Virus record (IMG/VR): IMGVR_UViG_3300034198_030914
Coordinates: 38,220-102,219 of that record
Origin: a virus
Length of the DNA: 64,000 nucleotides
Strand: one strand, 5' to 3'
Shown: positions 4,252-56,550 of the stretch, in pieces
How the letters are laid out: every line of letters starts with the position of its first letter
Numbering within the stretch: the first letter of the stretch is position 1
Notes under the pieces: model-generated
What the model was told of the DNA's origin: nothing
Databases searched by the model: none
The model's input: only the letters and a program-made list of their open reading frames with translations
Translations under genes and position numbers: made by a program

Positions 4252-4830
4252 TTAGGAAATTCTTTTTTTGAAAATTTGTATCAGACTTTTGATTTTATCC
4301 TTTTGAATCCTATTATATTTTGTGTCATTAAGGATAGATTCTGCTACAATAATTCTATTCTGAATTTCTCTATTGTTTTTAATTCTTTTTGAATAGTTTT
4401 CAGCAATTACTTCAAATTCTCTATCATCACTATAAATTTCTAAAAATGAGATTAATTTTTTTTCGAGATTCAAGTCTTTTTGATTTTTTTCATTGATGAT
4501 TCCCTCGTTAATCTGATGAATTTTACTATCTAGTGTGTACCAGTCATTGATTTCAAATTTAAGAGACTCTAATAGGTTAATTTTCTCTTCCCCGAATTCA
4601 TTTGATATCAAATCAATTATTGCATCAGCTAAGTTTTCTTGACCAGTTATTGAAATAGCACTATTTACTAGCTCGCTACGAGCTGCACCCGAACCTTGAA
4701 TTTTGAGAAAATCATTCATCAATTTTACTAGCTTCTCTCTTAATAAATTAATTTTTTGTTCCTGAACATTTATTTGTGGTCTTGGTTCTTCAGATATTTT
4801 CTGATTTATGACAGTGCTGAATTTTTTCAT
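4252..4830 (-). CDS. Helical protein with capsid-targeting-like leader
   Basis: The 192-residue protein is almost entirely helical and charged, with heptad-like spacing over residues 20-45 and 120-190. Its N-terminus reads MKKFSTVINQKISEEP, with I-S-E at about residues 12-14, which is compatible with an L/I-x-E prohead-protease site; it lacks the FEN core of the better matches, so it is a weaker member of that set. It is the first gene of a two-gene unit with 3661-4248. An internal core or scaffold-like protein is possible, but no homology was seen. Confidence 0.5.
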   Translation of the reverse strand: MKKFSTVINQKISEEPRPQINVQEQKINLLREKLVKLMNDFLKIQGSGAARSELVNSAISITGQENLADAIIDLISNEFGEEKINLLESLKFEINDWYTLDSKIHQINEGIINEKNQKDLNLEKKLISFLEIYSDDREFEVIAENYSKRIKNNREIQNRIIVAESILNDTKYNRIQKDKIKSLIQIFKKRIS

Positions 4831-47255: not shown

Positions 47256-47396
47256 ATGAAATGTCAATATAGAAACTGTAAGAACGAAATAGCTGGAAGA
47301 CCCAATAAAAAATTTTGTAAAGTTCAATGTAAAAGAAACGAACTAAAATACAAACAAAGAACGAAAAATAAAATTAAGAAAGATGATAATCAGTGA
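47256..47396 (+). CDS. Small zinc-finger-like protein before endonuclease
   Basis: ATG 47256 gives a 46-residue basic protein with C-x4-C and C-x3-C pairs (CQYRNCKNEIAGRPNKKFCK then VQCKRNE), a zinc-ribbon pattern seen in small companions of homing endonucleases. It overlaps the endonuclease start by 14 bases, so both are translated from one transcript. It may bind DNA or regulate the endonuclease. Confidence 0.5.
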   Translation: MKCQYRNCKNEIAGRPNKKFCKVQCKRNELKYKQRTKNKIKKDDNQ

Positions 47397-49167
47397 TGTT
47401 ACAAATATTTCGAGGGGATCGAGAAAATTGATAGAAGCCAAATGTATCTATTGTGATTCAATTGTCTCTGTACAAATGATAAAATACACTAGAAGTACTA
47501 AAGATTTTGCTTTAAATTTTTGTTGCTCTAAAAAATGTGCTGCAATAAGGTCAAAAGAAATTCTAACAGAAAAATATGGTGTGACAAATATATCGCAAGT
47601 TCCAATTGTAAAAGAAAAAATAAAAAAAACAAATTTGGAAAAATACGGATCGGAGACATATATGTCATCTACAGATTCCGTGGATAAAAGAAAAAAAACT
47701 TGTTTAGAGAGATATGGATTTGAAATTTATACAAAATCAGAAGAATATACAGAAAAGGTTAAGAAAACTAATTTGGAAAAATATGGTGTTGAGTGGTACT
47801 TACAATCAGAAGATAAACAAAAAAAATCAGAAAAAACTAATTTAGAGAAATATGGATTCACATCACCATCAAAATCTGAAGAGGTTAAAAATAAAATTAA
47901 GAACACAAACCTTGAAAGATATGGATATATGTCACCGTTACAAAATAATGATGTGTTTTCAAAGTCAATCAATACGTTGTTGGTGAAATGGGGAGTCACT
48001 AATCCTCAGAAATCTATTGAATTGAGGGAAAAAACTAAAAATACAAATTTGGAAAGGTATGGATTCTATCATCCAATTCAGTCTGAAGAAATAAAGAATA
48101 GAAGAGAGTTTAATTATATTCTAAAATACGGTGTGAAGAATTCATCTCAAAATGAAGAATTTAGACGAAACAACTTCAATATCGCCAATCATCCAAATTA
48201 TATAAACTATGTTGGTAATTCTATAAGTTTATTCAAATGTGATTTATGTAATAATAATTTCGAAATAAACACTGATAACTTTTTTAGAAGGACAAAAAGT
48301 GGTGTGTCAATTTGTACAATATGCAATCCAATTGGTGAACATAAATCAATAAAGGAGAAGGATATTTATAATTTTATAAAAAATAATTTCAGAGGTGAAA
48401 TAATACAATCGTATCGTGATGGTTTAGAAATTGATATCTATCTTCCGAATTTGAAAATTGGTTTTGAATTTAATGGATTATACTTTCATTCCGATAAATT
48501 TAGAAGCAAAGATTACCATATTGATAAATTAAATCGTTTTAGAGATAAGGGTATTAGAATTATAAATATTTGGGAAGATGATTGGGATTTCAAAAGATCC
48601 ATAATAGAATCTCAAATAATGAACGTTTTAGGATTATCTACTAAAATACATGCAAGAAAATGTGATGTGAAGGAAATAATTGATTATAACATTTGTAGGC
48701 AATTTCTTAAAATAAATCATATCCAAGGAGATTATCCAAATATAAATAAATCTTTCGGGCTCTATTATCAAGATGAACTAGTTGGGGTAATGACTTTCGA
48801 TAAATTTGAAGGTAGAAAAAAAATGGCTAATAATGAATGGAATTTATCTAGATTCTGCAATATATCAAATCATTATGTAGTTGGTGGTGCATCAAAATTA
48901 TTGAATCATTTTATTAAAGAATATAATCCAAATAGAATAATTTCATACGCAGATAAAGATTGGAGTCAGGGTAATTTATATGAAAAAATCGGATTCATAA
49001 AATTATATGAAACAAAACCAGACTACAAATATGTACTAAACGGAGTTAGAAAACATAAGTCTGGGTTCAAGAAGTCTATAACTGGTGTGTCTGAATCAAA
49101 ACTGGATCTAAATAAAGTATGGGATTGTGGGAAAATCAAATATGAAATTAAAAAAAGTCTCACTTAA
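47383..49167 (+). CDS. Hef-like free-standing homing endonuclease with long repeat array
   Basis: The 594-residue protein has an N-terminal C-x2-C module, then about eight repeats of about 27 residues of the form K-x-TNLEKYG-x5-P/S-x-QSEE (about residues 60-270), a CDLC-CTIC pair, the nuclease core DIYLPNLKIGFEFNGLYFHS with NIWEDDW, and the shared C-terminal domain (VGVMTFDKFEG...LSRFCNISNHYVVGGASKL). The repeat array is the longest of the four related endonucleases in this window. A palindromic terminator follows the stop. Confidence 0.85.
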   Translation: MIISDVTNISRGSRKLIEAKCIYCDSIVSVQMIKYTRSTKDFALNFCCSKKCAAIRSKEILTEKYGVTNISQVPIVKEKIKKTNLEKYGSETYMSSTDSVDKRKKTCLERYGFEIYTKSEEYTEKVKKTNLEKYGVEWYLQSEDKQKKSEKTNLEKYGFTSPSKSEEVKNKIKNTNLERYGYMSPLQNNDVFSKSINTLLVKWGVTNPQKSIELREKTKNTNLERYGFYHPIQSEEIKNRREFNYILKYGVKNSSQNEEFRRNNFNIANHPNYINYVGNSISLFKCDLCNNNFEINTDNFFRRTKSGVSICTICNPIGEHKSIKEKDIYNFIKNNFRGEIIQSYRDGLEIDIYLPNLKIGFEFNGLYFHSDKFRSKDYHIDKLNRFRDKGIRIINIWEDDWDFKRSIIESQIMNVLGLSTKIHARKCDVKEIIDYNICRQFLKINHIQGDYPNINKSFGLYYQDELVGVMTFDKFEGRKKMANNEWNLSRFCNISNHYVVGGASKLLNHFIKEYNPNRIISYADKDWSQGNLYEKIGFIKLYETKPDYKYVLNGVRKHKSGFKKSITGVSESKLDLNKVWDCGKIKYEIKKSLT

Positions 49168-54540: not shown

Positions 54541-55863
54541 TTAAAACCCAGAACTAAAAATATCCATTACAACTGATAATCTTTTATTTATTAGTGGTAA
54601 TCCCAAGGGTTCGATAATCGAATTTATCGGAGATAGGATACATTTCTCGAACTGTGTATCAAGATCTATTTCTGGTGGATTCATTTCAACTGGAAAAGAA
54701 CCTCTGATGTAAGCAAATATATCATTGAGAGATTTGTCTTTGCAATAATAATATTTTATCTTTGTTCCAGATTTAATAAACTCATACTTATATTGTAAAT
54801 TCTTATTTCTATGAAGTAGATAGTTAAAATGGGCACTAGCTTTAACAGCAAAGTGTGCACCCGTAGCAAATTCTAATTTATCCTTGTCATTCAAAACCTT
54901 TTCTTCATACTTTGAACAAGAAGACTGCATTGATATTTCATCAATTCTATCAGGTACACATAAGTCAAATTCCTTTCTTAAATTCTTAACCAGTTTCAAT
55001 AACTCCTTAATATTGAAGGTATCAGGATGTTCAAAAAGATATTTAACGATACCAATAATCTTATCTCTGGCAAATAGAGGTGTAGAAGATCTAACGAGTT
55101 CAACACCTTTAGGGAATATGTAAGTCAATCTATCGTAAGGTATACCATCTTCATATACAATATGTTGAATATACTTCTTCTTAGCAATATTAATAATTGA
55201 TTCAGAAACCCTCTCTAACTCAAAATCTTGTTTGTTGTCAACACCGTAGGAAGCTGCCAAATCATCTAAACACTGTTTAAAATAATCTGCGAACCTTACT
55301 TTGTCAATCCCGTGAATGAAGTCTAGTTCTCTTTGCCAATTATAATAAACCTCTAAGGGGTAATCATTTAAGATTTTATCTAAATTCCAATCTTTGACAA
55401 ACTCACCATCAACCAGAACTACCTTGGATTTTTGTAAAGCAATCTTTATTTTGTTTTCAGTTACATCATCTAACTTATCAATTAGTATGGCTGACTGTAG
55501 GTTAGAATTAGAAAACTTAGCCTTAAATTTAGACTTAGTAAGTATAGTAAAAGGTTTATCAACTGAATTCAAGTATTCAGAATTAAATAATTGATTCTTC
55601 CACTCACAAGAATTGATTGCTGGTTCAAATCCTACAAAGACGCTGTCAGTATCCCCATAGACACTAACATGTTGATTATCAGGTATTTGTGTAACATTTT
55701 TAATCTTAAGTTTTTCATGAACCCAAGATTCAGTATGCCACATAGTATACCAATATCTTTCATTGTCATCAGACATGGTTTTGGTTAGATTACGACCTTC
55801 TGCTGTTATTGTGCCTGCTACATTTGGATTGAAAAGTATAAAATATGGCGTGGCGAATGCTCC
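54541..55863 (-). CDS. Family B DNA polymerase, C-terminal part (motif C and thumb)
   Basis: The frame opens just after an in-frame TAA and reads GAFATPYFILFNPNVAGTIT and AEGRNLTKTM, the sequence that follows motif B, then VSVYGDTDSVFVGFE, motif C with both catalytic aspartates, and a thumb of about 350 residues. There is no ATG before residue 30 (55776), so translation must come from upstream. It therefore depends on 55894-56025 across a 36-nt hairpin insert. The N-terminal exonuclease domain and motif A are not in this window. The polymerase is thus split, as in some T4-like phages. Confidence 0.85.
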   Translation of the reverse strand, partial: GAFATPYFILFNPNVAGTITAEGRNLTKTMSDDNERYWYTMWHTESWVHEKLKIKNVTQIPDNQHVSVYGDTDSVFVGFEPAINSCEWKNQLFNSEYLNSVDKPFTILTKSKFKAKFSNSNLQSAILIDKLDDVTENKIKIALQKSKVVLVDGEFVKDWNLDKILNDYPLEVYYNWQRELDFIHGIDKVRFADYFKQCLDDLAASYGVDNKQDFELERVSESIINIAKKKYIQHIVYEDGIPYDRLTYIFPKGVELVRSSTPLFARDKIIGIVKYLFEHPDTFNIKELLKLVKNLRKEFDLCVPDRIDEISMQSSCSKYEEKVLNDKDKLEFATGAHFAVKASAHFNYLLHRNKNLQYKYEFIKSGTKIKYYYCKDKSLNDIFAYIRGSFPVEMNPPEIDLDTQFEKCILSPINSIIEPLGLPLINKRLSVVMDIFSSGF

Positions 55864-55899
55864 TTAAATCACCCCCACTATTGCTAGTGGGGGCTAAAA
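55864..55899 (-). other. 36-nt hairpin insert within DNA polymerase motif B
   Basis: Between the codons for GSY and GAF lie 36 nt with in-frame TAG and TAA. The centre folds to a 9-bp stem, CCCCCACUA with UAGUGGGGG, closed by a GCAA tetraloop. A second, 7-bp pairing of UCCUUAA (in the preceding exon) with UUAAGGA (at the junction) brings both ends together. The insert is a multiple of three. It looks like a recoding or bypass element, but splicing, or an inactive gene, is not excluded. Confidence 0.8.
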
Positions 55900-56025
55900 A
55901 TAACTACCGTTAAGGATCAACTTCAGCGATAATTGGAGACTGTTATAGTAATCAACGTCCATTTTCAATTCAGAAGCTTTTTTCCTCAGGTAGTCTAATT
56001 TATTCAATTTTTCCTGATTGTTCAT
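55894..56025 (-). CDS. DNA polymerase segment with motif B
   Basis: The 43-codon frame (MNNQEKLNKLDYLRKKASEL and on to YYNSLQLSLKLILNGSYF) ends at TAG 55894. YNSLQLSLKLILNGSY is the fingers helix and motif B of family B polymerases (K-x3-NSxYG), and GSY would continue to GAF after the insert. An in-frame TAG lies 18 bases before the ATG, so translation of the polymerase C-terminal half starts here. As it stands it would make a 43-residue peptide. Confidence 0.75.
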   Translation of the reverse strand: MNNQEKLNKLDYLRKKASELKMDVDYYNSLQLSLKLILNGSYF

Positions 56026-56146
56026 AAATATTAGAATTAAAATCTATTTGTTTTTATATAATTATATAGAATTAAGTTTAAAGGTACATACAGAGCTTTT
56101 ATATATAATATATGTTAAAAAATTAAAAAATTAAAATTAATATTTC

Positions 56147-56550
56147 CTATCGTGTAAATGATATATTGTATATATTCTCATTTTTGCACTCACCGATTGT
56201 ATCTTTTAAGTAAATAAAGTCAACAACGTATCTATTACCAGAAATGGTTTGAAATTTATATATGTAGTTGAATTCGTCTTCAAAAAAAGATGATTTTTCA
56301 AAATCAAAAGAAAAATCTGTTTTTAATTCTTCATATTTTATTTCAGTAATGTACCCCTCAAAATTTTCTATTTTCTTTTTGAATGTTGGTATAACTGAGG
56401 TTTTTTACTTTGATAGTATTTTTTTTTTGGGTGATAAAAAAGCTTATCATTTTTAAAATAGTTTCTTATAAATTCAGGAGATTTATTTTCTTTTATAAAT
56501 TCTCTCATTTTATCATTATCTTCCCTTGTCCAATTCTTATTTAAATCCAT
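56147..56550 (-). pseudogene. SANT/Myb-like small protein gene with frame change at an A-run
   Basis: ATG 56550 gives MDLNKNWTREDNDKMREFIK, a SANT/Myb-like helix layout, up to YYHPKKKYYQSKK; the matching continuation, TSVIPTFKKKIENFEGYITE and on to NISFTR at 56147, is in the -1 frame, 74 codons long. The join is at a six-A run near 56398-56404. Either the gene is damaged or it uses -1 frameshifting. The unshifted product would have 62 residues. It lies between the tail protein and the polymerase segment. Confidence 0.55.

Follow-up and report, generated by a model that had tools for sequence, protein, structure and literature searches.

How could a DNA polymerase be made from a gene whose motif B is broken by a short non-coding gap with stop codons in frame? 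The question arises on the minus strand of the 64-kb stretch of viral DNA analyzed here (the window), which carries the C-terminal half of a family-B DNA polymerase (PF00136 match, with motifs B and C present; Table 1). A preliminary description of this DNA had placed exactly 36 nt containing TAG and TAA between intact LNGSY and GAFATPYF codons, and this was confirmed to the base: the intact motif-B codons border the gap on both sides, placing it in the polymerase active site and in the best-conserved stretch of the gene. The window gap opens with TTT TAG, so its first codon is a sense codon. The perfect 9-bp stem with a GNRA loop was recovered as described, with GCAA as the loop and a tenth pair if an outer G-U is included, and the outer 7-bp UCCUUAA/UUAAGGA pairing is present in the minimum-energy fold of the coding strand. 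We also found, as had been cautioned, that UAU and UAA agree at only two of their three positions.

Table 1. Features of the interrupted polymerase locus (window coordinates)
Feature	Position	Strand	Details
Polymerase C-half, coding part 1	55900..56025	-	42 codons, MNNQEKLNKLDYLRKKASELKMDVDYYNSLQLSLKLILNGSY, MNNQEKL...LILNGSY; last codon is the proposed take-off UAU
Proposed take-off codon UAU (Tyr of motif B)	55900..55902	-	
Non-coding gap, 36 nt	55864..55899	-	Sequence TTTTAGCCCCCACTAGCAATAGTGGGGGTGATTTAA; in-frame TAG (second codon) and TAA (last codon)
Stem-loop CCCCCACTA-GCAA-TAGTGGGGG	55872..55893	-	9 bp, GNRA loop; starts 6 nt past the take-off codon
Outer pairing, 5' strand UCCUUAA	55910..55916	-	
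Outer pairing, 3' strand UUAAGGA	55861..55867	-	Overlaps the resume codon GGA
UAA, triplet before the resume codon, candidate landing position	55864..55866	-	2 of 3 positions match UAU
Polymerase C-half, coding part 2	54541..55863	-	440 aa, then stop; GAFATPYF..., rest of motif B, motif C YGDTDS, thumb
Fossil start of homing-endonuclease gene	56112..56171	+	MLKN*KIKINISYRVNDILY versus MIKNDKIKVNISYRNITHYI of L023; E 0.004, E 5e-5

This polymerase is naturally encoded in two parts. The C-half gene of intact relatives begins at the same place (MTKEEKIKK...), and the start codon of the first coding part, a leader rich in lysine, has the same position in the intact relatives L006, L012 and L057. 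Exonuclease and motif A belong to the N-half (~515 aa; PF03104 and PF00136 positions 18-165), a separate gene that sits tens to hundreds of kb from the C-half. Both the 102-kb contig of the window and its 139-kb twin (L003, from a second assembly) are incomplete and lack the N-half; the twin carries the same element, and its polymerase second half is identical to the window's. Sequence comparison found no matching solved structure. In four relatives (L037, L043, L044 and L047) the polymerase C-half is ~76 aa shorter (354-355 aa) than in the others. We found no relatives in bacterial genome contigs, and annotated phage isolates gave only distant or unannotated ones, among huge uncultured phages, Lak phages and a Flavobacterium phage. 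From the AT-richness and the distant similarity to Prevotella and Flavobacterium phages, our guess is that the host belongs to the Bacteroidota.

Relatives were gathered by a polymerase search of viral contigs (54) and by a second, alignment-based scan that added more; two scans of the viral collection for DNA patterns gave largely unrelated matches, yet contributed L208, L265/L338 and L280. A scripted search then located the best break in the motif-B reading frame, and only hairpin loci with a placeable break were counted. The alignment with homologous phages that the preliminary description had proposed revealed that the gap recurs in motif B: among ~50 distinct relatives there are 31 distinct hairpin gaps at six motif-B codon positions, elements that are not independent of one another, versus 19 distinct relatives that are uninterrupted. 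Within QLALKLVLNGSY, the breaks follow A (5 elements), the L next to it (14), V (1), G (2), S (1) or Y (8). Other elements at the window's codon and at neighboring codons occur in ~30 other contigs. The gaps measure 36-48 nt, cover all three mod-3 length classes and lie 33-42 codons into the C-half gene; all 31 carry stops or shift the frame. In nearly all elements the stem begins ~6 nt past the take-off codon. Pairs 1-3 of the stem are C-G throughout, pairs 6-10 span every canonical type, and the loops differ among relatives. Since the stem is kept while pairs 6-10 vary, it is the structure that is conserved and not the sequence. We found no earlier report of such a gap in phage polymerases in the literature searched, which was largely without subscription papers.

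The hairpin is also specific to this site. A hairpin scan of the 64-kb window returned no other hairpin of equal strength. The strict pattern CCCCC-N5-18-GGGGG was nearly confined to the polymerase site in 32 records (30 viral contigs and two huge-phage records), and a control pattern read backwards was almost missing from the same records. The four extra occurrences comprised hairpins at gene ends, a terminator and a match that fell by chance within another gene, and across the 32 records the pattern scan found no gap of this kind in any other gene of these phages. As the sole hairpin of such strength in the window, with a pattern nearly restricted to the polymerase site, the gap hairpin is more than a chance structure. 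An intrinsic terminator was rejected: the GC hairpin has no T-run and was called by the terminator scan on neither strand. We likewise rejected a known RNA family or a self-splicing group I or II intron, given a length of 36 nt and no Rfam match at gathering threshold or at E<=1. An alternative genetic code or stop readthrough was rejected as well, because all mod-3 classes occur among the gap lengths and in-frame reading fails for each of the 31 gaps.

Ribosome bypassing requires that the peptidyl-tRNA re-pair with a triplet readable by the same tRNA, and synonymous triplets on the two sides are therefore what it needs. In all 23 non-Tyr elements (Ala, Leu, Val, Gly and Ser sites) we found that the codon before the gap and the triplet at the end of the gap encode the same amino acid: GCT is paired with GCT or GCA, CTT or CTG with CTA, GTT with GTT, GGT with GGT, and TCT with TCA. 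From linker composition, the chance of a synonymous match is ~0.02-0.13 per site, and five sites agree. The Tyr-site class, to which the window belongs, breaks this rule, with no matched landing codon in any of its eight elements (UAA, UAA, AAC three times, AGC, GAC and CAA). In Tyr-site elements the coding RNA on the flanks tends to pair around the gap (UCC/GGA type). The title of Herr et al. 2004, as cited in PMC3014915, indicates that T4 can manage with minimal pairing, which keeps the Tyr class compatible with bypassing; this class remains the weak point of that reading. A stop occupies gap codon 1 in 4 of the 31 elements, codon 2 in 24, and one or the other in 27; the codon right after take-off is sense in most elements, unlike the stop of T4.

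The leaders of interrupted and intact genes differ too. A nucleotide motif at leader codons 11-13, GAGTCA/GAGTCT (Glu-Ser-Leu), is common to interrupted genes (L015, L023, L208, L338, L383, L390 and others) and absent from intact ones, and Ser-Leu-Lys/Arg (SL[KR]) occurs in the leader of 25/31 interrupted versus 0/19 intact genes. At Leu sites the motif is complementary to the landing linker (AGUCAUU/AAUGACU, AGUCUUU/AAAGACU), and these pairs beat swapped pairs (p 0.006, post hoc). The motif may form a long-range RNA helix or may be the mark of a co-converted cassette. We do not claim the difference as a nascent-peptide signal: its conservation is at the nucleotide level (GAGTCA), and co-conversion with the cassette is possible.

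Several explanations other than bypassing have to be weighed. With stops and frame shifts inside an essential motif, the interrupted gene might be dead or a sequencing artefact, a reading that we consider scarcely tenable and that selection and recurrence already contradict. The same elements were recovered from separate metagenomes. Between closely related interrupted copies, dN/dS downstream of the gap is 0.03-0.09, like that of intact-intact comparisons, and the interrupted polymerases retain their active-site motifs, metal-binding residues and other conserved residues. Moreover, no motif-B/C copy besides the interrupted gene was found in G005, G010 or G024 (contigs of 178-465 kb). Judged from these substitution rates, the interrupted genes are alive and under strong purifying selection. 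Nor did we find an intact polymerase elsewhere for the window phage, which would have spoken against the bypassing first proposed; the search covered the 102-kb fragment and the 139-kb twin, both incomplete. The gap might instead split the protein further, with translation stopping in the gap and restarting after it, and a peptide of 33-42 aa assembling with the remainder. Two points speak for such a split: the polymerase is divided already, with the N-half encoded tens to hundreds of kb from the C-half, and the split gp43 of T4-like phages is functional (PMC2988022). We nonetheless rate this reading as very unlikely. The resume site has no consistent in-frame start codon, and in the window TAA stands directly before GGA; the break would run through NGSY|G of motif B, and the matched codons and the strict 6-nt stem spacing would be left unexplained.

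The gap could also be removed at the RNA level, as a minimal intron-like hairpin that is excised before the mRNA is rejoined, for example by phage RNA-processing enzymes. Such removal would account for the frame-independence and for the conservation of the stem, and, needing no matched codons, it fits the eight Tyr-site elements with their pairing coding flanks. We nevertheless judge it unlikely for the family, since it gives no reason for the synonymous take-off and landing triplets of the other 23 elements, 36 nt is far below any known self-splicing intron and has no match in Rfam, and beyond the stem there is no conserved splice-site sequence. For the Tyr sites, including the window, we entertain with considerable doubt a narrower proposal: the resume point would be set by the outer helix of the flanking RNA and not by codon-anticodon re-pairing, or a tiny hairpin intron of a new kind would be removed. 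If this is true, either Tyr-site mechanism would be a form of recoding or processing without precedent, beside matched-codon bypassing in the same gene family. The removal of a tiny intron is a possible alternative to bypassing, most of all at Tyr sites, the window's own copy included.

The gap may also, like that of T4 gene 60, be part of a mobile element. The preliminary description had linked such gaps to homing endonucleases, and the relatives bear this out. Of the 31 interrupted loci, 17 have a homing-endonuclease-like ORF immediately upstream of the polymerase C-half, and none of the 19 intact ones does (Fisher 3e-5); phylogenetically independent pairs stand at ~6-7 to 0 when intact endonuclease genes are counted and at 8 to 0 with remnants. 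An endonuclease or a remnant is present in 21 of the 31 interrupted loci and neither in 10, with remnants in L009, L047, L056 and the window. The ORF, 287-385 aa long (a contig end shortens the L015 and L016 copies), lies on the opposite strand in divergent orientation, mostly with ~55-90 nt between it and the polymerase start. Its matches are to PF24308 (DUF7487) and to PHROG 3339, 12131 and 5104 (homing endonucleases), and an HNH-like motif, PTIDHK...NLCITKR.INS.K, was spotted by eye at its end. On these matches and this motif we call it homing-endonuclease-like. In an AlphaFold model the C-terminal domain is of low confidence, and the predicted fold is too poor to test the assignment. The fossil in the window has the same place and strand as the intact gene in relatives, and it matches most closely the short endonucleases that accompany other Tyr/Ser-site elements. 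In their tree the endonucleases form two clades (100/99), one with Gly, Ser and Tyr sites and the other with Ala, Leu and Val sites; clade fits site class with 2 changes, and there is one exception in each (L047, L027). Endonuclease type thus largely predicts gap position, as expected if gap and endonuclease travel together.

Further DUF7487 genes are found in the window at 47383-49167 and around 17845, 23843 and 41603, as well as at contig position 4317 outside it, and the window phage contig appears rich in homing-endonuclease-like genes of this type. In L024 (+1371 to +1751 from GAF) and L030, an endonuclease-like fragment lies directly downstream of an uninterrupted polymerase.

On the C-half tree, copies with and without a gap are mixed together: well-supported branches require at least 13 gain/loss changes, and the identity of the insertion site needs 25 changes on the same tree. 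By this measure the turnover of the gap is rapid. For instance, L020 (intact) and L023 (with a gap) are closely related, and the C-halves of L014 and L015 differ by only ~3 amino-acid changes, yet these two carry different gaps at different codons. DNA similarity between L014 and L015 sets in sharply at the gap's 3' edge, which is consistent with recombination or co-conversion ending there. A second kind of insert was seen in some of these genes: an intein in motif C (YxDTD|S) of the polymerases of L004, L042, L045, L049, L056 and L280/L375, all of which also bear gaps. Its halves lie in separate ORFs with an ORF of ~370 aa between them, which suggests a split intein. In L019 and L038 the motif-C intein is continuous or otherwise placed (~167 aa).

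Taken together, the locus is probably best explained by a cassette of a homing endonuclease and a bypass hairpin, like T4 mobA/gene 60, with the gap decoded by ribosome bypassing. The bypassing or RNA processing put forward in the preliminary description draws support from an insertion that is recurrent and conserved in structure within a gene under strong purifying selection. The DNA cutting, the protection by the gap and the translation of an unprocessed RNA by bypassing are what we infer from these patterns. The full cassette would consist of a DUF7487-type endonuclease gene divergent from the C-half together with a hairpin gap of 36-48 nt in motif B, and the window's gap would be the surviving half of such a mobile homing cassette in the split polymerase of a huge-phage group. 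The endonuclease would cut gap-less polymerase alleles of co-infecting relatives, repair would copy endonuclease, leader and gap together, and the gap would destroy the cut site. During translation, the ribosome would halt at the take-off codon before the hairpin and the peptidyl-tRNA would be released, slide across the gap and re-pair with the synonymous landing triplet, so that active polymerase would still be made. The endonuclease may later decay, as in the window, while the gap stays or is lost.

The nearest known system is T4 gene 60, which encodes the C-terminal fragment of a split topoisomerase subunit and has a 50-nt gap after codon 46; mobA lies between genes 60 and 39, and relatives have neither the gap nor mobA (PMC3014915, PMC5009743). 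The two systems share a short non-coding gap with a stem-loop and stops, relatives without the gap, a position ~33-46 codons into a fragment gene of a split replication protein, and an upstream homing endonuclease. The gaps of 36-48 nt also fall within the range over which T4 sliding stays processive, up to ~56 nt (PMC11194080). However, the interrupted gene here encodes motif B of a polymerase and not a topoisomerase, the phages are different, the endonuclease is of the DUF7487 type and divergently oriented, and there are at least 31 variants at six sites in place of one. In addition, the GC-rich stem starts 6 nt past the take-off codon, the stop mostly comes one codon later and the Tyr site has no codon match. 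Because the details differ and the Tyr class fails the matched-codon rule, we propose by analogy that the polymerase gap works like the T4 cassette in kind, and assert neither descent from that cassette nor a full fit to its definition.

Other systems resemble parts of this arrangement. The mitochondrial byps of Magnusiomyces (81 sites in 12 genes of one genome; PMC5009743) are likewise many short inserts with recoding, whereas here a single gene is concerned, in phages and with an associated endonuclease. In T4-like Aeromonas phages a family-B polymerase is also encoded in two genes, gp43A and gp43B, with an associated homing endonuclease in phage 25 (PMC2988022). There the halves are adjacent, separated by intercistronic sequence or by the endonuclease (PMC2988022), whereas here they lie tens to hundreds of kb apart and the hairpin gap interrupts the C-half as well. 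Inteins and group I introns of phage polymerases are mobile inserts in conserved motifs too, and several relatives here carry the motif-C intein; in contrast, the gap of 36-48 nt encodes nothing, is too short for self-splicing and has no Rfam match.

To our knowledge, T4 gene 60 has been the one bacterial-phage case of efficient long-gap bypassing, and a homing-cassette origin of such bypassing has likewise had a single example. The polymerase family described here supplies 31 natural variants at six take-off codons, together with close gap-less relatives, and puts all stages of the endonuclease on view, from intact to decayed to lost. The sequence rules of take-off and landing thereby become testable by comparison. 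Gene finders will label such polymerases broken or truncated. The family also shows that ribosome bypassing may time and again let a selfish element hide within the catalytic core of a replicative polymerase.
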